DNA of 64,000 nt from Watersipora subatra (Eukaryota; Bryozoa; Gymnolaemata; Cheilostomatida; Watersiporidae): assembly GCF_963576615.1 (NCBI RefSeq), contig NC_088711.1:63769248-63833247 (forward strand). The letters run 5' to 3'. A model generated the notes under the pieces. That model was not told where the DNA came from, made no database searches, and was given only the letters and a program-made list of their open reading frames with translations. Made by a program: the position numbers and the translations under genes. Below are positions 1 to 53,368 of the stretch, piece after piece. Every line of letters begins with the position of its first letter. Within the stretch, counting starts at the first letter, position 1.

Positions 1-2106
<2,106 letters not shown>

Positions 2107-2399
2107 TTGCATTTCTCTAAAACATGCTCAGTTATTAGGCGTATGACCATCCTTATCAGCTGTTATATTGTTCATATAGCTGCTACACAAAGACTATCGC
2201 AAATGAATCTTATGAAAACAACGTAACCAACTTCCTGTTGGTAATTTCAAGAACGCAAAGTAAGAATTGTGAATGCTTGGTTCAAGACAACCATCAGTTT
2301 TTCTGATACCAATATTTGTATTTGTGTCAGCGATCTCACGCTCTGTCCTTAAATGCAATGACTGTTATCAAAAGATATTGTTAATTTGTAGCACGTATA

Positions 2400-2405
2400 A
2401 ATAAA
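2400..2405 (+). terminator. Candidate SEPSECS polyadenylation signal
   Basis: AATAAA lies 294 bp after the SEPSECS stop codon, on the correct strand and in otherwise featureless AT-rich sequence. The assignment rests on position only. Confidence 0.45.
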
Positions 2406-2653
2406 CAAGTTGATGCTCAATTTAAACACTTTAGTTCATCCCTTTATGTCTGTTTAATAGGGTATTTTATTAAACAGCTGTTCAAGAAATTTGCTCTTCT
2501 AAAATGGTTTGCTAGTATCAAGGTATACTTCAACAACAAATCAGTGCAATAGATTTATTGTGCTGTCAGCAATACAAGATTTGACATCATTTGAAAATGT
2601 GAAGTGGAAGGGCTGTTATTTAAGACTAGCTGAATGCCCTGTGTTGCACCGAT

Positions 2654-2739
2654 AATAAAAACAGCTTATAAACATTACATTATCTACTACATTATCTTTA
2701 CACTAGACTACCTGCAACTGTTTATAAGCTGTTTTTATT
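2654..2739. repeat. Perfect 21-bp inverted repeat with 44-nt loop
   Basis: The 21 bases at 2654-2674 are the exact reverse complement of 2719-2739. The hairpin sits beside a copy of the dispersed element that starts with GAATGCCC and the word GTTGCAC, so it is probably part of that mobile element rather than a transcription terminator. Confidence 0.85.
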
Positions 2740-2835
2740 CATCTCGTGAGGCCATGAGGCCAGATGGTAATCGATAGTGCGACACAACATCATGTAATGA
2801 ATATCTTCACCATTATTGTTCGCCATTCTCAGTTG

Positions 2836-2905
2836 AAGGCGTAGTCTAATGGGTAAACTCCATGTCTACAGAACTGGAGGTTTGAGATTGAATTGGTAGT
2901 AAAAC
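2836..2905 (+). mobile_element. tRNA-derived SINE head (degenerate)
   Basis: An A-box-like stretch (GGCGTAGTCTAATGGGTAA) is followed about 30 nt later by a B-box-like GGAGGTTTGAGATTGAAT. The order and spacing fit an RNA polymerase III internal promoter, but no intact cloverleaf forms, so this is a SINE relic and not a tRNA gene. Related heads occur near 8340 (reverse strand) and 45835. Confidence 0.45.
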
Positions 2906-2949
2906 TTGATTGTATAACTGAACAGATACTCACATTTATATATATATAG

Positions 2950-3160
2950 ATAACTAGCAGAATTCCCGGCGTTGCACGGGTTTTAAAAAACAGCTTATTA
3001 ACAGTGGCAGGTAATGTAGTGGCCTGCCATTAGCTAATTTGAGCAAGCTAGTATCGTATTGTTGAACTTACTAATAAGAGCCGCGAAAGCAAGCTTTGAT
3101 GTTAGACGACACATGTTAGAGGACAGACGACACAGACACTCACATTTATATATATGGACC
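2950..3160 (+). repeat. Dispersed repeat, copy A
   Basis: The segment starts with GAATTCCCGGCGTTGCACGG, continues with a CAGGTAATGTAGTGGCCTGCC block, and ends with TTACTAATAAGAGCC. The same ordered blocks recur in direct orientation at about 45640-45770, in reverse orientation at about 8520-8670, and as a tail fragment at about 60880-60910. A truncated relative lies at about 2630-2745. It is an unclassified mobile-element family. Confidence 0.6.
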
Positions 3161-4084
3161 GAAAACAAATGTTAAGAAATCGGCCAAACAAAGAATTATC
3201 TCTTGGATTTGAGAAACATGTTTCGAAAATAGTGTACTACACCGGTTGTAAAACTTGGGTGTGTTTAGGTTTAATTCATTCTTCATAGAAACACACAAAA
3301 GCAGAATACCAGAACTTTCTGTTATAAGCTATAATTCTGCTTTCCAATGTCACTCACAGACTAATAACCTTTATCTGCAGTTGATTTGACCACTAAGGAA
3401 TAGTTAGCATTTCACCATTAGTTTTCAAGTCTTTGCCTTATGTATATAACAGGTTAACCATCTTGTATGTTACTAATGTTATAGTTGTAGGTTGACAGTA
3501 TTTTACAGCTATATTTCCATAAAGTTTATAGTTGTCTCATAGTTTGTCTGGAGGTTATGTTTAGCATACACATATGTTATGTTTTGCATACATATATAAT
3601 ATACATGAATTAAATGAGTGAGGAACGTTGATTGCAAAGAGGAATTAAATAATCTACTAGCCCAAAAAGTGACTGTGTGAAGAAAGCATGAGTTAACAAT
3701 TGATTGACACAAAAAGTGATTGCTTGCCTTATAACTAATCACGCATGACTTGTCCTCTAAGAACGAGTCAAAAATGAAAACTCTTAAAAAGTCATGAAAA
3801 AAATGATAAGACTCCAAAATTTGACTTAATATAATATGAGTTGATTTGTCTAACATTATCCTATCGCGTTAATGCCGGGTAAGCTATAGGAGGTTTGCTG
3901 TGATTTGTCTCTTGTTGCGCTATCACAGGCGATCATACATTGACATTGTCTCAGAAATGTATAAAAAAACGATAACAAGAAATAGAAGGCAGCATTCTAA
4001 CTGCGCAATATTTTAGTTCATAATTCAGCATATAATTCATACTAGCGTGGAAAGTTATTTTGCACAAGGATGGAGGGGTAGTGT

Positions 4085-5549
4085 TCACCGATGGTGCTGT
4101 TCATGAGAGAGAAGTTCAGGCTCACTGTCGAATGCCCTGTCACAAAACTGACATATCCACACCTCTTCATCGTCTTCCATATCATAATCTTCGTTACCGC
4201 CGTTCACCACCGGTTGTTCTGTACCGTCACTAGAGTCCTCGGAGGCTGTGTCATCAGGCGAGGGATTCTGTGGTACCTTTGATCTCAACTCTGCCAGATC
4301 AATAAACTCGGGCTCACCTTCATCATCCATAGACGTGCTCCGTCTAAAACCAATTCATACCAAATTACTTAACATTAAGAATTTCTGCTCTGTGAAGTCA
4401 CCATGCACATCTATTATGCTTTATGTGACTTTGTATTTGTATTTTGTTTGTATTTTAAGAACTTCTCACTCGTATATTTTCGCTAAATGCTTCTTCAGAC
4501 ACTAATTCTACACGTAACACTCAAGCTAGAAGAATGAGCCCATCAGAGTGAACTGCACACCAGAGATAGACAAACCCATGAAAGCTGGAATGAGCGCACC
4601 AGAATGCAAATGTATACCAGAGATACACTATGTTCAACAGCTATAACCATATCAGTGCACACTGTACACCAAACAAAGGATAGTATGAACATATATGGAT
4701 AGTAATGGAAAGTATATGAACATATTGCTTACCAGATATACGTTGACCATCCTACCTAGCCTGACACCATATAATAACTAAGATAAACACTGAAATGGTA
4801 AGGCTTACCCGCTGAAGCCTTCAGCCGAGTTCAGGTGCTCATGAAGCACCATGTGATCATGAACAGTAGTAATGGAGCCATCAGGCAGCTCTGTAGCCTG
4901 AGCCAACTGAACATCTGCAGGAACTGGTTTTAGCTTTGTTAGATTCATGATAGATTGTGTTGCTAAGAGATTGCGATTAGGTTGCTGATGCAGAGTTTCG
5001 TGGCTGACTAAGGCCTTCTCGGAAGGAACGCTGTAGTCACAATAGGCGCATGTGAACCTAAAAGCATAATCATAAAAACTCATCGCATTTTGAAGATAAC
5101 CTCACTAGAGGATGAGTTGGGTTTTTTACAAAACTAGTAACCATACAGAGGCGATGCAACCAGTCACAAGCTTCCACCTTACTCGCGCATTCAGTCTACA
5201 CATGAGTAGTTCAAAAGTATATCTACTAAGCAATCAACTAGATGACAATTTGTCATCGCTTGTGTAAACGTAAGCTGCTCACCCCTGCTTGCTGCCGTGC
5301 AAACCAATGTGCCTCCTAAAGTTGTCTCTTAGTGCAGAGGCATATGGGCACTTCTCACAACAGTACCTCCTGCTAGGCAGGCCTTTCTTCTCCTTCTCCA
5401 GTACCATCTCCTTATTATTGTATCGCAGACTGAATCCTCCTTCTGACTCTACTGTCTCTCCTTTTATCTCTTCACCGCCCTCATCATGATTGGATAAAGG
5501 CAAGCTTTCTGTCTCCGTCATGTCTCCCTGGCAAGAGGAGCGGCTATAA
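4085..5549 (-). CDS. Zinc-finger gene exons 31-33: fingers 29-31 and C-terminus
   Basis: Exon 31 (5549-5283): acidic linker and finger 29 (YCCEKCPYASALRDN). Exon 32 (5057-4809): finger 30 (FTCAYCDYSVPSEKA) and a neutral linker. Exon 33 (4343-4085): a strongly acidic stretch (DYDMEDDEEV) followed directly by the isolated last finger WICQFCDRAFDSEPELLSH and stop TGA at 4087-4085. An acidic patch just before one terminal finger is also seen in REST. I treat this as resemblance only. Confidence 0.88.
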
Positions 5550-8500
5550 CTATGCAGGACTATTAATAAAATCAAATATTCTTATCTAGCTCTATTTCTA
5601 TATTTTAAAGCATTGAAATAAATCATTTGCATAATAAAATAAAAAAAACATAAAAGATAAAACAAAAAACATAAAAGTAGAAGGAACAGAAAAAATGGAG
5701 TTTAAGGCTTTGATGATATTCATTATTATTATTGCTGACATTCCTTCTGACACTGATAAGGGAGAGCAGAGAGTGAGTGGATATGAAGAGGCGCAACTAC
5801 CTGGTACTGGAGGCTATGCACCTTGATGTGCTGCGCCATGAGCTCCCTGCTCTCACAGTAAAAGTCACAGAACTTGCACTTCAGAGAATTCTCTGTATAC
5901 GCTCCATGGCTAGCGGTATGCTCTTCAAGCACAGACAGTTGACCACATGCGAATGGACACTACAAGTGGTGAAGTTTCTCCTATCATCATCATAGAAAAT
6001 GACCTCGACAAACTAATACCACATAATTCAACGATAACGACACATGTAAGGTCTGTCAAGTATTAGAAAGAATAGACACCTGCAAGGCCTGTCAAGTATA
6101 AGAAAGAATAGACACCTGTAAGGCCTGTCAAGTATAAGAAAGAATAGACACCTTTAAGCATTTGTGCATCATCCGTTTTAATCTGTCTGCACCATCACCA
6201 GGCTCAAGCTTCACCGGAGCAACCTGACTGTTGATTAGGTGCTGCTTGAAGGCAGCCACATCATCCAATGACGTTTCCCCTAAGTTGAGCGAGCCGGTAA
6301 AAACCTTTTGTCGGTAGCGTGGCGAGTGAACCTGCAAAAGTTACCAACCGATGGTCATCTCACTACTTAAGCTTGCAGCTCATAATTAACAAAGATGACA
6401 TTCTGTACATACATACATCTATATTCTAGAGGAGTCAGAGAATGCAGGAAGGAATTACCTTAACGTGCTGCTGCAGTAAACGGTTGTGGTTGACCCAGTA
6501 GGCGCACTCGGGGCACTTATAGATAGCCCCTGGTCTCTGTTTGTGCAATTTCCTATGGGCATTCAGGTCCTTCGCTTTGCCTCTGTATGGACACTCTGTA
6601 CATTGCACAAGACTCGAAGCCTGCAGATACTTTTCTGTCTTCTCACGTTTCTTTTCTTCCCTAAAACACACACAGAAGAAGTAAGTTTCCGGAACCTGCT
6701 TTCACTCTTTCCTAGCAAATGTCTGACCGCACTACACCAAATAAGTTGAAGTGCTGTGTCATGTTTGAAACATGTCAGTAGCGACAACTTCATGTATGTC
6801 ACATAAAATGAGCTCAACCGTTTGCAATCAGAAATGCACTTGTTGTGTCATGTCAGATTGAGAGATGTCAGTAGCAGTAGCGACACTTAACATACATATG
6901 CGAAATAGATAATGAGCTCACCCACTGCCATCAGGTTGGTGTAACTTCATGTGCTGGTGAAGGAGTCTATTTGCTGAGACCCAGTAGTCGCAGAAGGAAC
7001 ACTTGAGATCGGCTTCTGATCGGGGAGATATGTGTCTCTCTACATGCTCATTATACATAGAGACCTACAAACCACGATTCTATCTTAGAGTATCGCTACA
7101 AGTTCCTCATCACCTGCAGCAGCACCTCATCGTATAAACTAACTTTTAGCCATCTGCTAGAGCAATTGCTCTACTCACCTTATCTGTTTTGTACGGGCAG
7201 TGTGTGCAGTTATATCTTCTGTTATGGTCGTTCTGAGCATTATCTGGTTTGTTAGAGCCATGTTTTGTGAACATACTATGGATATCTCCTTCCTGAAAAA
7301 AAAGATCTCGTGTAATATGAACAACATATTGTCTACATCACAAAACATTTCGTCGGTGTAAATCAAAAAACACTCACAATGATATGCTTTTCTTTGATGT
7401 GACGGACTATAGCACTCCGCCATGCAGTTTTCATTTCACATTGGTTGCATGTGTATATAACTCCCGTGGTGCTTGCGGAGCTTGTCGTGGTTGGAGCTGG
7501 CTCAGGCTCTACCGGGCATGGTGCATATTCTATGTTTTGCAACAGCACATCTTCCACGCTGAGGAAAACAACATTCAGTCAAGTAAAAATGATGGTGCAG
7601 CTGCAGCAACTTACTGTTGGGTATCTTACAACTAGCAAACTTTGTTGGAAGTTAAGACTTGGCTAACCCAAGCTAACCCTTAGCTTAACACTCACCGGTC
7701 GATGTCGTGTTTAGCTTTGATGTGCTTGTGTAACGTGTACTCCATGTCATCAGCAAAGTCGCAGATTGCGCACTGGTACGCATTGTAAAGGTCATGCTGA
7801 ACTATGTGCATGAGAGCCTCCTCTTTCTTCGCATGTTTGAATGAACATCTTCGACATTTCCACATCGAGAATGGCCGTTCCATGCTCGATGTCTTGTGCG
7901 CTGCCTTGTACGTTGTCTGCTCGTCTCGGCTTGTCTTGCTTAATGTCTAAGTGCATGACACAAACAAATATTATTTTCTTTAAAATGAGGCCAAAGTTTA
8001 TTTATAACGCAATTAAAGATCAATTATACAGTGTACAAGAAATACATAAAGCGATTATAAATTAGCGTAAAAACTATCTTCATGTTTGAAAACTAGCGCA
8101 GAATGTACACAGTACTTATATAAAGTGAGTAGCTCAATGGAATGCACACAGTACTTATATAAGGTGAGTAGCTCAATGGAATGCATGATAGCATATACTG
8201 TAGTTCAGTAGCAAATGGGATGGTTTTATGATAATATATAATATACATCTCAGTGTTTGTCTGCCTGTCTGTCATTCCTGTGTCCAGTTATAGCCATAAG
8301 GTTTTAGGAACAAAAATCCGCTTTGCCCTGGATTTAAACTCGGAACTTCCAGGTCTGCAGACAGGCGTACAAAACCCCTAGACTATGCATTCAACTGGCC
8401 GTAGTGAAGAATAATTGGGCACTTGTTCATTACATCAGTTAAAATACTCGCGCTGAGAGAGAATTCTATCGGTTATTACTAGCACGCTTGATCGCTTGAT

Positions 8501-11500
8501 CATTTAGCGTAATGTAACGATTATTAAGCTGGCTTCACACGGCTCTTATTATAGTAAATATTTAGACTAGCTTATGTTACTAGCTTACCAGGTGAGTTAC
8601 TCAAATTCATTGGGTAATTATTCTATTACCCAAGCATCGCTCGGCATTCACCTAGTACAGCATTCAACTAATAATAAAATATATTTTTAGAAAACAATTG
8701 TACAGAGAAGAGTGTAGATTAACTTGTAGACCATAGGATGCGCTCACCTGTATACGCAGTATCTTTCCGTCATGCTCGGCTCTAACGTGTCTCACTGTCT
8801 CATTTCTGCTTGTCGATGTAAAGAAACAGTATCCACACTTGAACTTAACGCTGCCGTTGTCCTGCTTGCTCATTCCTCTTCCTTCACCCCTCCTCTGACC
8901 CTAATAATTGCAAAAGCGATGAGTTGAGTACTCTACACAAGCCTTTCAAGACCGCACAACATGTATGCGTTGCAAGACTCTGGCAGACCTGACCGGCACA
9001 TACTTGGTTAGAAGTCTCTGCTGGTGCGACTGCACTCTGCAAACCGACCATCGTAGGGAGAGAACTGTAGCAGGTGTTGTTGGTGTTCGAGATGGTCGGT
9101 GAAGGGGAGGGACTAACGGATCGAGGTATTGAGCCCTCCTCCTTTATATGAGATTGGATATCGGCTATCTTTTGCTTTGTCTGTCCATCATCCACCTCCA
9201 TTGTTTTACCGTCCGAGTAGATGACTGTTTCCTGCAAAAAAGGAATTTAGTGTACATCATAGATTGTTCACATCAACTAACACTCCCAGGGTTTCACATT
9301 TTCTGCCTTGTAAAAACGAATATTTACAGAATATGCTGTATGATAGTTTTAAATAACTCACTCTGTTGAGAAGGTCATCAAGAATGGAACCGATGCCGCC
9401 TCTATGCACAGACAAGATATGCTTTTTCACATCCCATTTCCAGTTAGACCTCTTTCCGCAGAGTGAGCAAATATAAGGTCGCGAGTCGCTGTGTCCCGAC
9501 TCTTCTACAGAACAGCAATGTAGACAGCTGATGTGACAATCTAGATGTAGAGTACAGGACTGTTCAGTCTTATGCAGAGGTTGCCCACAATGCACAAAAA
9601 ACATGCATAATGCAAAGGAAGCTGAGCTCACCAAATAAAAGGTAGGGAAAGCACTAGCAACCTACAAGGCTAATACAGAGCGACATACACGAGCAGTTGG
9701 ACAGGGGCAGTTGAACAAAGTTAACCATGCCAGATGATAGAAATCAACAATTGTCGGCTTGGATGAGTCTCACATCTAACGGGATCACCCTAGAGACGAA
9801 TTCGTACCTCCTTTTGATGAGAGATCGACAATTTTAGCATCAGGATTGTCAGGATGGAGGGCGCGGATGTGCCTCCGGATGACCCACATGAACTCTGAGA
9901 ACTGGCTGCATATTGAGCATTGGAAGCTGCCTATAAGACACACAGACAGCAGACTAGTGGCCAGCGACTAGGGCAGGCAAGGGCGGGAAAGGGCTCACCT
10001 CCTCATAGTACAGTGAAACATGCGAGGATCCAGGGATAGGGAGACATGCGGATTGTTGGTTTATTCACAAGGTGTGAGGTGCATTACTTATTAGAATACT
10101 ATCAATATGAAAGAGCCCATTCCCATGCATTATTGGTAGACACTAAACATGCCTAGACAGCGGGACAAAGCGGAGGACAAGCCATCAACTGCACATGCAA
10201 TTGGCAGCACATGCACTAACAGTACCGGGGATAGTTAATCCCACCCTTTTCCCATAACAGTTCAGCAGTTAGTAAAACAGATAACGTCGTGTCCTCACAG
10301 CACTTATTGCACGAATATTTTTTATAATAGAAATATAATAAGTTTTTTGGTTTTTTATTAGAGTCCAACTTTGATTTTTACATTCCTTTGATTTCGGACA
10401 AATCCAAGTTCAAACGGAATATTTACCACTTTTGCTCGTTACCTTTAGTATTCAACTGTCTAATCAAATGGTTCATTGCGGTTTACCAAATACTCAATGT
10501 ATTAAAATTTACTGTTTTAATGCAGTATTTTAGTTTTATATTCTATTAAAATAAAACAGATAAGCAATTTCTATGTTTTATTTTATACAAGAATCTGGGG
10601 AACAAGGCTGGGGTACAAGCACCTACATATGAGGCAATACATTCCCCCAGCCTAGCTTTAATATATTTCTTGTTTTCTTAATATACTGAATAGGTTGTAA
10701 AATAATACTAGAGTTTTAAAAAGTTATTTTTAGCCTTGAAATGATTAAAATAATTTGCATTATTTGTAAGGGTAAAAAATCATTTCGATTCACCTGCTGA
10801 GCAACTCCCCGGAACAGATTATAATTGAACACCAAGGTCAGATGATAGATTTAAAAGTTTTGGTTGAAAAACAAGTGAATATTTACACATTGTTCTAATG
10901 CTACATAATTGATTCTTGTCTAGTTTTTGCGCATCACAAGCAGTCATGGTGCATATTCTATAAGCTCCTTTTCAAATGCTTGGAAGCAACAATCGCATGC
11001 TGACAATCAAAGTACCGGAGTAAACAGGCACAATCGTTTACCTATTTTTGGACCATTCTTGCCTACTGGTCTAGGATTCGGGTCAGGAGAGGAGCGCTCT
11101 CTGATTTTAGAGCTCACACTGCTAGGAGAACTTTCTCCTTCTCCATCTGTAGGAGGAGTGTCTGGGGTGCCTGGGTCCGAGTCAAGAGCATCCAATGCAT
11201 CTTCATCCTCTATGATGTGAGCCCCCGTCACACCTGGAATAACAATAAATCTTCAATACCATCCAGAAAGATACAATTGTGGATGTATTCAAACATGTAG
11301 TATAATCTTAGATGCCAGGAGTAGATAATCACTCACCCCTGTGCATCATCTTAATGTGTTTAGCGACATCCCACTTCCACTTAGAACTTTTACCGCACAA
11401 AGAACAACGATAAGGTTTTATAGATTTTCCATTTTTGCTATTTTTCACATCAGGATAATTCTGGTCCACATCTTCCTTATTCTCGCCTACATTAAAATGC

Positions 11501-14500
11501 CATAAGCCATGGTAGTATGATACAAAATATCAAGTCTATGATAAGGAAACTAAGAAAAAGAGAATATGATTGCGAGAGGAGATGCGCATGAATGGCAGTA
11601 AAGAATACCTGCTTCTAGGAGCTCCTCGCGAGTCATTACCTCCACCTTAGCATCTCGTATCCCAGGGTGTACTTGTCGGTAGTGCTTTCGAATGTCACAT
11701 TTCCAATTGCTGCGCCGGCTGCATACAGAGCAGCGGAAAGGACGGATACTGATGGCCTTGGAGCCTGATGACATATCCTGATGTAAAACCAAAAGTGGTT
11801 TGTGGAGACATTTGATTAACCTCTACAACATCTTTGATTTCATAGGAACATTGATAGTGATGCAACATGTTGGTGTCTGGCCACCAATCGGGAATTGTCG
11901 GGTTTCACAAGTACCAACTCTATTAGGGCATCTCACTGAACTTTTGCAAGTGTACTTTACAAGTAGTTAAACAACCCAGAGCATCCAGTAAAGCATGCTA
12001 AACTGATAGAATGGCATAGTTACGAAACTTTAAAAAACCACAAGCGTGTAATATAAATAATAATATAAATAATATGGTAATTAAATATAAATAATCACAT
12101 TGTTTGCAGAGCGCGCCCGGGGTTTCGGCCAAGGCTCATGCTTGAAGTCAGCAGAGATGCCTATCTTAGGTTTGCCACGCTGCTCAGGGTGCTGCTTTAG
12201 GTACTCATCGAGCGTGTCTTTCGCTTCCTGCGTGTCCAATACTATCACCTCATCTATACAGTCTAAGTGCTCCGTACGCATGTGCTTCTGTATATCCCAT
12301 TTCCAGTTAGCCCTTTTACCTGTTCAGCCACATGTTTTTAACTACATTCAGATACAGTAAGAAGTTCATTGATAACAGAATTGACAAAAGGGATCAATCA
12401 GAGACTCGCATCACTTACCACAATCATCACTTACCACAATCATCACTTACCACAATCATCACTTACCACAATCATCACTTACCACAATCATCACTTACCA
12501 CAATCATCACTTACCACAATCATCACTCACCACAATCATCACTCACCACAATCATCACTCACCACAATCATCACTCACCACAATCATCACTCACCACAAT
12601 CATCACTCACCACAATCATCACTCACCACAATCATCACTTACCACAATCATCACTTACCACAATCACATCACTTACCACAATCATCACTTACCACAATCG
12701 GGACACTTGAAGATTTTTAGATTGTAGTGAGTGGCCATGTGGGCGTTGAGGCGGGACTCACTGGTTGTATTATAAGCGCAGTGGGGGCACTGAACATGTG
12801 CAGTAACCTGCGTGTGTCCATCATCTGCAAGTAGCCATGCGCATCTTACCTCATAAGCAGTTGTGATTCATGAAACATGAATTTTCCATGGACCATTGTT
12901 ATGTGATCGCGTGTGTATGTCTCATAAGCAACCAATTTCCATGTGAGCGTATGGCAAATTCTAGGAGAACATCTGCCTATGCCCTATCTTATATTAATTA
13001 TTATCAGCCAAAAATCTTCTTCAAGAAATGCATGAGAAGCAATTGATACATGGAAATGCTAGAGCCAGAGCTGACCTCGGCTGCGCGATGTCTTGGAAGT
13101 GGATGGAGAGAGAGCAGCTGGAGGTGACGGTTGAAGGGCAGGAATCTTAGGCTGGTCCGGTTTGGCAGTAGCTCCAGTGTTTTCTGCTACTTCCTCATTG
13201 GGTGGAGTCCATATCATCCCTTTGTCTGACTTGGTGTCAGGTTTGCCAGAAACATTGTGAACTTCAGGAAGAGGACGATTCCTGTTGGGACTGCTACGCA
13301 CAGCTTCCTGTAATGACACCATTAGCCTTTGTACACCAGCAGCAGCCTAGAGATGACACACAGTAATACTAGTAGTAACAGTAACTGTAGTATGTAACTG
13401 TAACAGTAACTGTAGACACGCAGTAACAGTCTATTGACAGCATTGTCTGTTAAAACTTCAATTACTGTCAAGTGTGCTCTACAAGGCCTAATCCCTTTCC
13501 TCTATGTTATCAACTGAATTAACTCTAGAAAATTACTTGAAATCAACCCCAGATCATAGTTTCAGTACTCAGTGCAATGTCTTATTAGATTATGGTTCAT
13601 GCAGACAAGCACTATCGTAATTAGTAACTTCCAATATTTACAGCTCACCTCAAACACTTGCTCTACCAGATTATATGGGTTGATACCCTCGGGAAGTTTT
13701 TCCGGATGATTCTTTTCTATGTGCTTTTTAGTGTCACCCCTCCAATAGGAAGCATATGTGCAAAATTTGCAGTGGAATGGCTTTTCTGGGTGGAGCCTCA
13801 TATGTGCATCCAGGTGAGACTTGAAGTTGGTCTCATACCGACAGTTCACACACTTGAACTCACCTGTAGAAGACAATCAGACTCTAGCATACCAGAGCAT
13901 TAAGCCACACAAGTTAACACGAATATAGTGGTGCAATTAGTCATACTTACTTGAACTGGAGAGCAATATTAGGATATTAAAACACAGTCGAGGAAGATAT
14001 TTTAGGCAGTAACGTAATCATCATAAAAAAGAGTAAGAATTAAAAAGGTAAACAAGTACCATACATACATCATACATCGCTACAGGGCAGCGCAGATACT
14101 CCGAGTAGACTTTGGTTAAAAAAAAGAGTCACTCACCGCCGGGCACATGGACCATGGTTGAGGGGTCAAGTTCTCCCTTCTTTATAGGCTTCCCATCTTG
14201 CGTTAGTTTAGCCAACTCCTTCGCAAGAGCCATGTTCTTATCACTGCCATGAGATTTGACATTCGGCGCAGGTTTGAGCATGGGCATCTGCGGGGCGCTT
14301 GAGAGTTGGTACTGAGGTTCAGGGGAGTGGCTACTCACCTTGTACGAGGAAGGGGAAGTAGAGGAGGAGCTGAGGTTGGCTAGAGGGTTAACGATAGCCG
14401 CGTGACTCATGTTCACAATTACCTAGAGTTACAATGACACCACATTAGCTATGGACCAGAGGCTATAATAATAGATCATTATCATAGATAATACGCCAAT

Positions 14501-23500: not shown

Positions 23501-26500
23501 GAATGATGAGACACTAACAGGGTGAAACATTTGCGAGGCATTGACATCAGTGAGAAGAGAATCACATGCTAGGTCTTGAGAGCGAAAGAAATATGTGCAA
23601 GCTGCACCCTCTGTCAAAAACAAACACTGTTTATTGGAAAGTCATCGAATGACTTCTTTGCAAGAAAACTTTGAAGTTGATGTTTATAAGAAAAGATATT
23701 TCAAGCTCTACAGTGCGCAATTACAGCGTGCCGGTTATAGATCAGAAAATTGTGATGATCAAAATCAGTAAAGTAGAATCATATACATCCGCTGCATGCT
23801 ACACAATACCGTATCAGCAGAATAGCAAAAGAAACTTCTAAGAGACTTTGACAGCAAGCTTGAGACAAAATTTTTAAATGGTATTTGACTATCATAAAAG
23901 TCAAGAAAAATGGGTGAAATAGGTGAAGGGATGATAGTGCCTACCAAACAAATAAGAGCTTGTCATTATTACTTGTTATACCAGATTTTCTTAACAGTAA
24001 CTAGAAAAAATTATATAACAGAGTCTGAAAAAAAGAATACTAGCATTGTTAAGAGAAGATAACTTCAAGTTTAAAATTATTAGTGCCCGAGACAATCATC
24101 ACGGTTAATTTCAAGTAAACATACCAGCTGAGTATAATGGATACAGATTATGTATGCAATAGAACAACTGTTTCACAAATATTTTTAAAGCAGCTCTGAG
24201 CTTCTAACATACAATTTTTATACTACTTAAAACTATTACACGAAGGAAATCATATAACAATCATGTTGTAATCTATCTATTCTATCACAAGATTGCTTTT
24301 TCCAAAATTGCAAGATGTCTCCAGAAGCTAGTAGCGCTGCCAGGTAATGAGTGAGGTCAGTTATGTATGCGCTTAGCCGTGGCAGCATTGCCAAATAGAC
24401 AAGGAAGCAAAAGAGGCAGTCACTATCACGCGGATATGTCGATTGCAAGAAGTGAAACTGATTTCTCCCACAATGAATCAGTGTAATCACATATGGTATG
24501 TCAAGCTACATAACCAACAGGTGCCTATCAAGCTAAATCCAATCCTCCAGGCAATGTCACAGTATGGAGCGATGAAGACCATAACCAGTAGCCTGGAGTG
24601 TAAGCTGAGCGGATTCTATGTTTGTTTGTTACACAAACTAGAAATAAATTTGCAAATCTTAAGCAAAGATCACCTATTTCGAGGAGAATAGGCATGACAG
24701 CTATCATTGGCTATCAGCATGCTTATCTGCTGATAGCTAAAAGCCACATAATGTGATGTTTTACTTGCAATTTCATGTTGTACAACTCGTTCATGGCAAA
24801 AATTAGACATTGGTAGAGCTAACCAGCAGATGTTAATCAAAAGAATAGAACTATTCGATTTTAAAATAAAATGGGTGTGCTTTAATATCAAATTTCTATA
24901 TTCAGCGACTCCCATAAATGAGCAGAGTGGTAATAGAACTAAACAAATAATACAGAAATGTGTTAAGGCATTGGCACCAAGGCTAGATAAGGAACCTGAA
25001 TAGGGATTTAAGAACAGCACTTTTTGTAGGGTTGTCTTCCTTTATTTCAATCTTAATAGTTTATTGAGTTCTAAGTCTTTTTATAGCTTATTGAGCCCGC
25101 AAACCAAATATAGGCAACACAGAGGCCTTCATGCTCGGTGCTCACTCTGTTGCTCCAAGTGGTATCTTTCATAGACATAGTGGCATTGTTTATGAGCCAA
25201 TACCAGATGAAAAGTTTATATTCTTTATATATTATCCATTCTTTTTCTGATTCAATTAATCCCTTCAGAGAACTATAACACGGTGATAGTGCTTTGATCT
25301 GGCAGAAACAAGCGCTGTGAAGTTAACATTTGGTACACTTTTGATGGAGTTATTCCCTCATGACAAGCTTAGGTGCCTATTAGTATTTGTACCGTTTCCA
25401 TGTTTTAAATGCATAACTTTGATATATATTGCAGAACTTTACACTCTGCAAGAATGCCTTTCTGCGTAAAAACATATTTACTAAAGTCTCAAAGTGATCT
25501 AAGGCTAGCATTTCGGAAGAAAACCCAACCAAAGATTGATACTCCAGACTTTACTAACCGGCACTACAGCATTTCACTTTAACAGGTATATGGGAAAGAT
25601 CTAAGGCAAATGATTAAGTGTTCTGTTTTTGCTCAAACAAAACATGATATCCGAGTTTGATTTCAACAGAGCATCTTACATGTTGATAAAACTTTAGCAT
25701 GTGACATACAAAATATGTAGAGGCGATTAAGGAACAATGTATATGCAGTCTCACATCAACTTCTGATCTCCTCTCAACATATAAGATTTGTGACGTACGT
25801 CAGCAAATATCTGCTTCCACAAACAAAGAAACTTTCAACATACTAGAAACTATTGAAAAAAGAAAAACTATTTTCAATATTTTCAATAGCCAAAAGAAAC
25901 TATTGCGGTTCTTTAGGTAAATGTGAATAACTTGATAAATATTTTTCATATTTATAAACCATGAAAATTAGGTATAAATGAGTTAATTTATGTAAGTTAA
26001 TCTAGTGTAAGTCATCATAAGCTATATCTAGTGTAAGTCATCATAAGCTATATCTAGTGTAAGTCATCATAAGCTATATCTAGTGTAAGTCATCATAAGC
26101 TATATCTAGTGTAAGTCATCATAAGCTATATCTAGTGTAAGTCATCATAAGCTATATCTAGTGTAAGTCATCATAAGCTATATCTAGTGTAAGTCATCAT
26201 ATATCTAGTGTAAGTCATCATATATCTAGTGTAAGTCATCATAAGTTTTACTTATTTTACTACCAAACCTACGCATTACCTTCACCTTCACCTAGCCTAC
26301 ATTCTTATTCTCCAAGTTAAAACAACAATAGAAACTTCTTTTTACAATTTATTACTTCATTAACTTACTTGTTACATGTTATGTAGAGTTCTCTATTCAA
26401 TTCTTATATAGTTTTATGTAATGTACTTATTTTTAAAACTATATGTAATTATTTGAAGAATTCAATGTGTGTGTTTTTGGGATGTAAAATGAGTTCAATG

Positions 26501-50800: not shown

Positions 50801-53368
50801 TTTATATTTTAAACAATTCACCATTTGAATAGCCTTCTGTAGTTGATTGTAGTCGAAAACGCCTGTTGGTCTGTATTTCATGTTAGCTGATGTCCATTCC
50901 AACTGTGTGATGTACAATATCTTAACAGGAGAAGTGATTCCTGAAGGAGACAAATGTCCATCATGTAAAGGTGCTAAGACTACGAAGCAAGCAAAGGTCA
51001 TGGAGGTCCACATAAACAAAGGTATGGTGGATGGACAGAAGATTCCTCTTCATGGTGAAGCAGATCAACAGGTGAACCGAAATGTCGTAGAATGTGTTTC
51101 CTGCTAAACCTCGTTTCTTTGCACATAAAATGCCTTTTGGATAGGCTGTACAATATCCAAAGTTTGACATTGCAGCCCGGCTTGGAACCAGGAGATTTAA
51201 TAGTCATCCTTAGACTGGTTGAGCACAGTGTCTTCACACGAAAGCAATCCGACTTGTACTGTACTCAAAACATCGGTCTTACCGAGGCTCTCTGCGGTTT
51301 TGAATTTGTAGTCAACCATTTAGATGATAGATCTCTACTACTCAGTGTCCCACCAGGAAAGGTTATTCAGCCAGGTAACGTCTTTGTGTAAAATTAGTCT
51401 ATGGGACTCAAATAGCTATCCTCTTAAGCAACTACAGTCGCACCTTCCTTACATATGAGCTTAATGTATTCTGGGACTGAGCTCATCTCTCAATTTTCTC
51501 ATATCTTAAAGCCATATTTCCTAAATAAAATAACTAATGAAAATTAATCCATTCCTATCTTCTGAAAAAAACCTAAAAATAAAAGATGTTGCGATGGAAA
51601 ACGTGTTTTAATTGTTTTCACTACTTATGCTCATAAAGTAACAAATATCTATCTAGTGGTTATGATCTGCAATAAAATGTGATATTGTGATGTACAGTAC
51701 TGCATAGAGTTCCTACCTTTGAGACAGACGATAGCGGCTAACGGTGGTGTGAGAGAGAGTTGATGGCAACACGTTCGGTACACTACACCTTTGTGGCGCT
51801 ACATAACATCACCAACTTTTAAATGAATTTAGCTTATTAGACACACACTTAAAATTAAGTTTTAATTTTATGTGAATCTTAATTCTAATTTTGTCTTTGC
51901 TCTCATTTTCTATTATTTATTTACTTCTTATTTGGCACTGTTTGCCTTGCTTTCACTACCACTTTTAACCAGCCCTTTTAAAACTGATCTGACGAGAAAG
52001 AGCAAGCGATGCGTTTGTCCAAATCGGCCTCTCGCATACTTGGCCACTTTACGGCTGCATCGAGAACCGACTGCTATGCTCGTATCTCAAGGCATATTAT
52101 TGACCGAAATTCTGCTTTTATCTCAAATCTGTCATGTTAGGGCACTCGTATGTCGAGGTATGACTGCACATTGCAATATCTTTTGGCTAGGTAAAATCGT
52201 AATATTTTAATGAGTGCTTGTTTCTAGCTTTTTGATTAGTTTTAGAATACACTCATCGCTTTGTCTTCGTGAACAGATCTCTACTTTGTACACTTGTCTT
52301 CGTGAACAAATCTCTACTTTGTACACTTGTCTTCGTAGACAGATTTCAACTTTGTACACTTGTCTTCGTAGACAGATTTCAACTTTGTACACTTGTCTTT
52401 GTAGACAGATCTCAACTTTGTACACCTGTCTTCGTAGTCAGATCACAACTTTGTACACTTGTCTTCGTAGTCAGATCTCAACTTCGTACACTTGTCTTCG
52501 TAGACAGATCTCAACTTTGTACACTTGTCTTCGTAGTCAGATCACAACTTTGTACACTTGTCTTCGTAGACAGATTTCAACTTTATACACTTGTCTTCGT
52601 AGACAGATCTCAACTTTGTACACCTGTCTTTGTAGTCAGATCACAACTTTGTACACTTGTCTTCGTAGTCAGATCTCAACTTCGTACACTTGTCTTCGTA
52701 GTCAGATCACAACTTTGTACACTTGTCTTCGTAGTCAGATCTCAACTTCGTACACTTGTCTTCGTAGACAGATCTCAACTTTGTACACTTGTCTTCGTAG
52801 TCAGATCACAACTTTGTACACTTGTCTTCGTAGACAGATCTCAACTTTGTACACTTGTCTTCGTAGACAGATCACAACTTTGTACACTTGTCTTTGTAGA
52901 CATATCTTAACAGCTTTTAAATTGCTGTGAGTCAATCAGACAGTGTCCTTTTTATAGATATGCAGAAAACAGTGGAAGGAGAAGGTATGCCTCTGCAAAG
53001 AAATCCATTTGCTAAAGGCGATCTCATTATTAGGTTTAATGTGACTTTTCCAAGCGATGGCTTTGCTGGCGAGGACCAATTGAAGGTGAGTCATGCTGGG
53101 ATTGTTCGATTCGTACAACCGAGTGCTGTATTGTTTGCTTTGAGATGCATGCCACCTTTGGTGTCTACAAGTTGTCATGGTTTCACAGATGCTAGAGCTG
53201 TTACTGCCTAAACGCCCACCACGGACAGCCATTACGGATGATCACGAAGAGGTGGAAATGCATTGTTACAGCGCCTCGGCTCAAGCAGGACACCATGGAG
53301 AAATGGATGAAGATGATGAGATGAGAGGCCATGGACACGGTACCAACATGCAGTGTGCTCATCAATAG
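44808..53368 (+). CDS. DNAJA2: DnaJ homolog subfamily A member 2 (type I Hsp40)
   Basis: This is a complete Hsp70 co-chaperone, which stimulates Hsp70 ATPase and hands over unfolded clients in the cytosol. Nine coding exons: 44808-44876, 44961-45129, 45344-45446, 45532-45612, 49544-49677, 50929-51071, 51176-51374, 52958-53085, 53189-53368. They total 1206 nt, 401 residues, in phase throughout. The J domain has [11 protein letters not shown] and YHPDKNP (the HPD motif), followed by a short Gly/Phe region ([14 protein letters not shown]). The zinc-binding domain has four CxxC pairs ([32 protein letters not shown]); the first has Ala where CxxCxGxG has Gly. The client-binding domains follow ([39 protein letters not shown]). 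It ends MQCAHQ, a CaaX-type box as in vertebrate DNAJA2, implying farnesylation. A likely acceptor at 44786 suggests an upstream 5' UTR exon. Confidence 0.96.
45640..45930 (+). mobile_element. Dispersed repeat copy B plus tRNA-like SINE head
   Basis: 45640-45770 repeats the order of blocks in the copy at 2950-3160 (GACAGGTAGTGTAGT..TTGCCATTAG..ATTACTAATAAGAGC). Then at about 45838-45905 comes a tRNA-like head: GCGTAGCTTAGTTGGTAAGA as A box and GGTTTCGAGATCAAACCC as B box, the best pol III promoter match in the window. It lies in DNAJA2 intron 4 (45613-49543). Confidence 0.55.
46210..46608. mobile_element. 399-bp MITE with TA target duplication
   Basis: The left end CCGTACTTTTCGGACTAT and the right end (reverse complement) CCGTACTTTTCTGACTAT form terminal inverted repeats that stay similar for about 30 bp. 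TA flanks both ends (46208-46209, 46609-46610), fitting the TA target preference of Tc1/mariner-type elements. It has no coding capacity. Internally it has GTTCCGTTAGGCACT-type repeats and alternate GCGG words. It sits in DNAJA2 intron 4. Confidence 0.85.
50181..50416. repeat. 29-bp minisatellite, 8 copies
   Basis: The unit is ACATGCCCCAGATACTGCTG plus TGATGTTTT, with only a few substitutions among eight head-to-tail copies. It is in DNAJA2 intron 5 (49678-50928), with no spacers, so it is a minisatellite and not a CRISPR-like array. Confidence 0.96.
52261..52913. repeat. 33-bp minisatellite, about 20 copies
   Basis: The unit begins CTTCGTAGACAGATCTCAAC and ends with TTTGTACACTTGT. The period of 33 bp is a multiple of three, so two plus-strand frames stay open across the whole array (a 238-codon frame repeating [11 protein letters not shown] and a 213-codon frame), with a shorter minus-strand one. 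Variant units (GTAGTC versus GTAGAC; TCACAAC versus CTCAAC; CTTCGT versus TTTGT) alternate in blocks, hinting at higher-order duplication. It lies wholly in DNAJA2 intron 7 (51375-52957), 44 bp before exon 8. Confidence 0.96.

Follow-up and report, generated by a model that had tools for sequence, protein, structure and literature searches.

The tandem array and its host exon

The window analysed here is a stretch of 64,000 nucleotides within a 67-Mb contig (C4, positions 63769248-63833247) of a genome that its intron-split genes mark as eukaryotic, and it contains a long multi-zinc-finger gene on the minus strand, at roughly 22-4 kb of the window. A tandem array crosses the end of one of its exons and continues into the following intron. 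The features of this junction, together with a second array in the same gene, are as follows, in window coordinates.

12693..12824, minus strand: zinc-finger exon (open frame, splice signals, Pfam C2H2), whose last 7 nt, GATTGTG, are the exon-derived part of the repeat unit
12409..12699, minus strand: array of 18 units GATTGTG/GTRAGTGAT, with a consensus 5' splice site in each (TRF and sequence)
12691..12692, minus strand: first GT, the sole frame-keeping donor among the 18; copies 2-18 give a stop after CGK
12320..12692, minus strand: intron of 373 bp, or 99 bp once the 274 extra bases are removed (exon joining)
12099..12319, minus strand: next exon, completing a split C2H2 finger (GKRANWKWDIQKHMRTEH) by Pfam and joining; its start is assigned from the finger, and for its end only the gene-finder model gives 12099
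6039..6158, minus strand: second junction array, 3.3 copies of a 36-bp unit, of which the first begins 7 nt before the exon ends at CTTAAAG/GTGTCT (TRF and sequence)

Within the window, TRF reports a 16-bp period with 18.1 copies and 97% matches (score 515) spanning 12409-12699. Read on the minus strand, from 12699 to 12409, these are 18 head-to-tail copies of GATTGTGGTRAGTGAT, and each unit, GATTGTG|GTRAGTGAT, combines the last 7 nt of the exon with the 9 nt that open the intron. GTRAGT is present in every copy (18/18), as GTAAGT in 11 (copies 1-4 and 12-18) and as GTGAGT in seven adjoining ones (5-11); copy 2 has 2 additional bases. These counts bear out a preliminary description of this DNA, which had proposed about 18 tandem consensus donors reading GTAAGTG or GTGAGTG with the consensus kept. 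A search of the whole 784-Mb assembly (239 contigs), in which the best candidates alone were scored, finds the full array once, within this one gene, and the nine other matches listed are 70-77% identical. Folding of the exon, array and intron RNA is no more stable than that of shuffled sequences (z +1.66).

The exon at 12824-12693 is a single open frame to CPDC and ends TGT CCC GAT TGT G/GTAAGT, and the sequence around the start of the next exon at 12319 reads GCTGAACAG/GTAAAAGG (acceptor side/exon). Joining copy 1 to 12319 gives FKCPDCGKRANWKWDIQKHMRTEH, a complete C2H2 finger that resembles fellow fingers in the same gene such as YICSLCGKRSNWKWDVKKHILSVH, and the 373-bp intron interrupts this finger. 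Pfam PF00096 has one match in the upstream exon alone and two in the joined exons, the best of which lies across the junction (residues 39-62). By contrast, joining from any of copies 2-18 yields CGK and a stop (17/17). A gene finder chose the same copy-1 donor but placed the acceptor at 12253; we prefer 12319 because the finger is completed there. The gene finder is a simple model, run without transcripts, and overcalls exons upstream, so that the number 15 given earlier to the exon is provisional.

Copy 1 thus appears to be the productive donor, a use inferred from the protein. On this protein-based argument, the earlier proposals that the unit is the real donor of the zinc-finger exon (7 + 9 nt) and that the intron must be spliced at the first copy both agree with the frame and with completion of the finger at copy 1 alone, and the predicted early stop from later copies does follow, soon after the cysteine. 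The intron had also been expected to measure about 100 bp without the copies, which matches the 99 bp obtained; the added comparison with neighbouring introns is reasonable, if imprecise, as those after nearby modelled exons are 302, 251, 321, 122 and 103 bp.

In the second array of this gene, the later copies of the 36-bp unit read CTTACAG/GTGTCT, CTTGCAG/GTGTCT and CTTACAT/GTGTC. We placed the start of the next exon manually at 5959, guided by the C-x2-C-x12-H-x3-H spacing (C-LK-C-x12-H-x3-H), and use of the second copy, also worked out by hand, leads to a stop. This case is weaker than that of the 16-bp array, because the finger joined at 5959 scores below the Pfam cut-off and the gene finder put the exon end elsewhere.

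Repeats at other exon-intron junctions

We surveyed other junctions in this genome using 75 myosin head and 94 dynein N2 domain exon matches with their flanks. Splice sites were called with a simple script favouring GTs near the end of the profile match, not from cDNA, giving 164 donors and as many acceptors (no donor could be called for 5 exons, and no acceptor for 5). Five of the 164 donors in this sample are part of repeats beginning within exon sequence, and two of the 164 acceptors (L049 and L123) are repeated.

L058, donor: 43 bp, 2 copies; second-copy use shifts the frame
L100, donor: 31 bp, 2.3 copies, GTATGA and then GTATGC; second-copy use shifts the frame
L118, donor: 57 bp, 2 copies; second-copy use keeps the frame
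L132, donor: 29 bp, 9.9 copies, AAG/GTGAGTC; second-copy use shifts the frame
L133, donor: 32 bp, 7.1 copies; second-copy use leads to a stop
L049, acceptor: one additional copy 129 bp upstream
L123, acceptor, minus strand, dynein exon: 33-bp unit, 13.8 copies, with GTGCAG in the copies

Three of the five donor repeats have two copies or slightly more. In all five the myosin or dynein open frame reaches the first copy, which lies within 15 nt of the end of the profile match. L132 is a clear example within a known protein domain; here (C2:76790464-76791136, minus strand) about 10 copies of CTGCCAGTCTAAG/GTGAGTCATGTCAGAC stand in tandem after the dynein exon end NCQSK/GTGAGTC. The script gave a sixth hit, L096, which we excluded from the donor count because the donor judged by eye is upstream and the array begins at intron base 2, and L084, whose array begins at intron base 1, was left out of the crossing count. 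On the acceptor side, arrays at two dynein exons on the minus strand (L135 and L139) end exactly at the called acceptor. As the arrays at L123, L135 and L139 include the acceptor or end at it, the functional acceptor would be the one in the last copy.

We then compared junctions with nearby positions, scoring a 20-mer as repeated if it was matched at 17/20 or more within 200 nt (n=164 per position). Repeated 20-mers occur at 6/164 donor junctions (5 without L096), at 6/164 intron positions at +15 and 8/164 at +30, and at 0/164 positions 25-45 nt inside the exon. On the acceptor side the corresponding counts are 2/164 at the junction, 6/164 at intron -35, 8/164 at intron -50, and 0/164 at 25-45 nt inside the exon. 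The frequency of repeats at donor junctions is close to that of the intron around them and drops off within exons, a pattern expected of minisatellite turnover if disruption of exons is selected against. It is better explained by minisatellites that spread in introns and lose the copies entering exons than by a device for amplifying donors or for regulation. Amplification specific to donors is unsupported in that junction 20-mers show no higher rate of repetition than those of the nearby intron, in a comparison of small numbers where counts of 5, 6 and 8 of 164 are too low to exclude a modest junction effect.

Genome-wide counts of short patterns were also obtained, all of them hits and not arrays. 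Three successive GGTAAGT motifs give 10,826 hits (3,446+7,380) against 1,694 (811+883) for the reversed pattern, an excess that could mean a surplus of donor-bearing arrays, with the first matches, which alone are listed and all lie on contig C1, coming mostly from one array. The triple GGTGAGT pattern is barely in excess, at 4,114 (1,980+2,134) against 3,059 (1,604+1,455) reversed. The TTGCAG pattern gives 4,203+3,749 hits against 427+568, although its reversed form is an unfair control because the reversed word contains CpG. Thirteen donor-bearing C1 arrays from the matches listed were inspected and lie mostly away from visible coding junctions: in 10 of the 13 we saw by eye no convincing frame entering the array, although two of these (L045 and L047) have sequence that looks coding at a greater distance upstream. 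A 47-codon open frame precedes L016, whose coding junction is unproven because this frame has no Pfam match; the upstream edge of L039 was outside view, and for L019 the first script hit lies elsewhere. A large 28-bp array at C1:3480598-3482788 and beyond (L020-L039) has the unit GTAAGTCGATTAGTTACACCGTGTACAG, with GT...AG ends within the unit.

Comparison with known junction-spanning repeats

The report on lancelet Adh3 and globin genes describes mirages, length-variable tandem repeats across 5' or 3' exon-intron boundaries, with units of 10-72 bp in Adh3 and about 150-160 bp in the globins; the Adh3 data and globin RT-PCR suggest that they leave splicing undisturbed (PMC3087553). A further report places lancelet mirages in the troponin C and PGBD5 genes also (PMC3902484). 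The lancelet repeats and the array described here share short tandem units lying across a boundary, splice signals, and exon and intron parts within a single unit; the present array differs in its host, which is probably not a lancelet, its short 16-bp unit, its high copy number (18) and the consensus donor in every copy. As to this host, a 229-residue segment of muscle myosin from the genome has its best matches among scallop and squid chains, suggesting a lophotrochozoan and not a chordate; no COX1 was found. Among titles and the opening lines of abstracts, in the part of the literature covered, we found no report of mirages in an animal other than a lancelet.

Turri is said to have found in 1995 that the minisatellite of human IFI6 (also 6-16, G1P3) provides multiple splice donors. 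According to a further source, two downstream IFI6 repeat units are used as donors, giving isoforms (PMC4526556). Both IFI6 and the zinc-finger gene carry a minisatellite where an exon ends, with repeats that serve or could serve as donors. However, the later IFI6 repeats give isoforms whereas the later copies here all lead to a stop, so that no in-frame variant is possible and the array would not supply donors for protein isoforms.

Two other systems are related. Variable internal tandem repeats in human segmental-duplication genes likewise lie at exon-intron boundaries, but they differ from one paralogue to another and have been linked to alternative splicing or to new introns, whereas here an existing intron merely lengthens (PMC2812944). 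Intron gain by tandem duplication also copies splice signals, but makes an intron from exon sequence, whereas the present array consists of copies of a pre-existing donor laid down in the intron that follows it (PMC4974935).

Interpretation of the array

We consider it highly probable that the array is a mirage-type minisatellite in which the first donor is in use and the remaining copies are intronic passengers. It has a unit spanning the exon-intron boundary (7 nt of exon and 9 nt of intron), tandem repetition at minisatellite length (16 bp x 18), and splice signals in the copies (18/18 GTRAGT). Such an array would arise as a short tandem duplication across the junction and would expand into the intron by slippage or unequal exchange, with the exon-proximal copy alone acting as the 5' splice site. 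The spliceosome would define the exon from the upstream 3' splice site and pair the first donor with the downstream acceptor, and stray use of a later copy would give an early stop and probably message decay. The other 17 copies could be tolerated as passengers because of this pairing and the probable decay of messages from stray use. Mirages are a kind of repeat already known, and there are several junction-spanning cases in this genome. We regard the array as probably harmless and, as to a function of its own, probably ordinary. The retention of GTRAGT in all 18 copies is readable as maintenance, but recent expansion or homogenisation accounts for it. The earlier expectation that copy number is polymorphic is plausible, judging by analogy with the length-variable lancelet repeats.

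The preliminary description had also offered two functions, a lowering of output and a decoy cluster for U1, and neither is favoured. Under the former, some transcripts would use copies 2-18, meet the stop and decay, so that copy number would set zinc-finger output. The fact that all 17 later copies are consensus donors leading to CGK and a stop is what this arrangement would need, and two downstream units of the human IFI6 minisatellite do serve as donors (PMC4526556); yet comparable repeats are found at 5/164 sampled donors of unrelated genes, a frequency close to that in nearby intron, and lancelet mirages are reported as spliced normally (PMC3087553, PMC3902484), and we think such control of output improbable. 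Alternatively, the donors might recruit U1 snRNP without splicing, and so shield the transcript from early polyadenylation or strengthen recognition of the first donor. In this genome the U1 genes, to judge from 5 copies in L154 and L155, start with the canonical ATACTTACCTG, and each unit of the array could therefore pair over G/GTRAGT, but some of the other junction repeats lack a strong donor (GTGTCT in the 36-bp array; GTATGA and then GTATGC in L100), and a role in U1 binding seems highly unlikely. A broader version, in which junction-spanning repeats are standing donor clusters of variable copy number that tune host-gene output through rare stop-bearing copies or U1 loading, with heritable or perhaps somatic length as the dial, is in our view very doubtful.

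Tandem arrays are prone to misassembly, and only one assembly was used, so that the array could conceivably be expanded, collapsed or a mixture of haplotypes. Against this, it sits cleanly in one gene on a 67-Mb contig with no second full copy found among 239 contigs, similar repeats are present at other exons, and an error of this kind could alter copy number but would not easily create a unit that spans the junction. We judge an artefact to have very little probability, and return to a mirage-type minisatellite with a single working donor as the preferred reading.

Read in this way, the array is a clean experiment of nature on the choice that the spliceosome makes between nearly identical donors, with 18 in a row and the first alone productive. 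If the rate of 5/164 holds genome-wide, there would be many natural minigenes in which to test exon-proximal preference, and annotation pipelines that choose any consensus donor will err at such sites.

Other tandem repeats were seen in passing. The U1 snRNA genes at C5:45786606-45984104 (L154 and L155) form a tandem cluster with 42 scored matches, many of them about 1.37 kb apart. Within the window, a 26-bp array of about 10 copies at 25993-26245 has TGTAAGTC in every unit on the plus strand, with no adjoining exon recognised. A 33-bp array of about 20 copies at 52261-52911 is open in several frames (including plus-strand frames of 224 and 238 codons) and lies downstream of exons that are DnaJ-like by eye.
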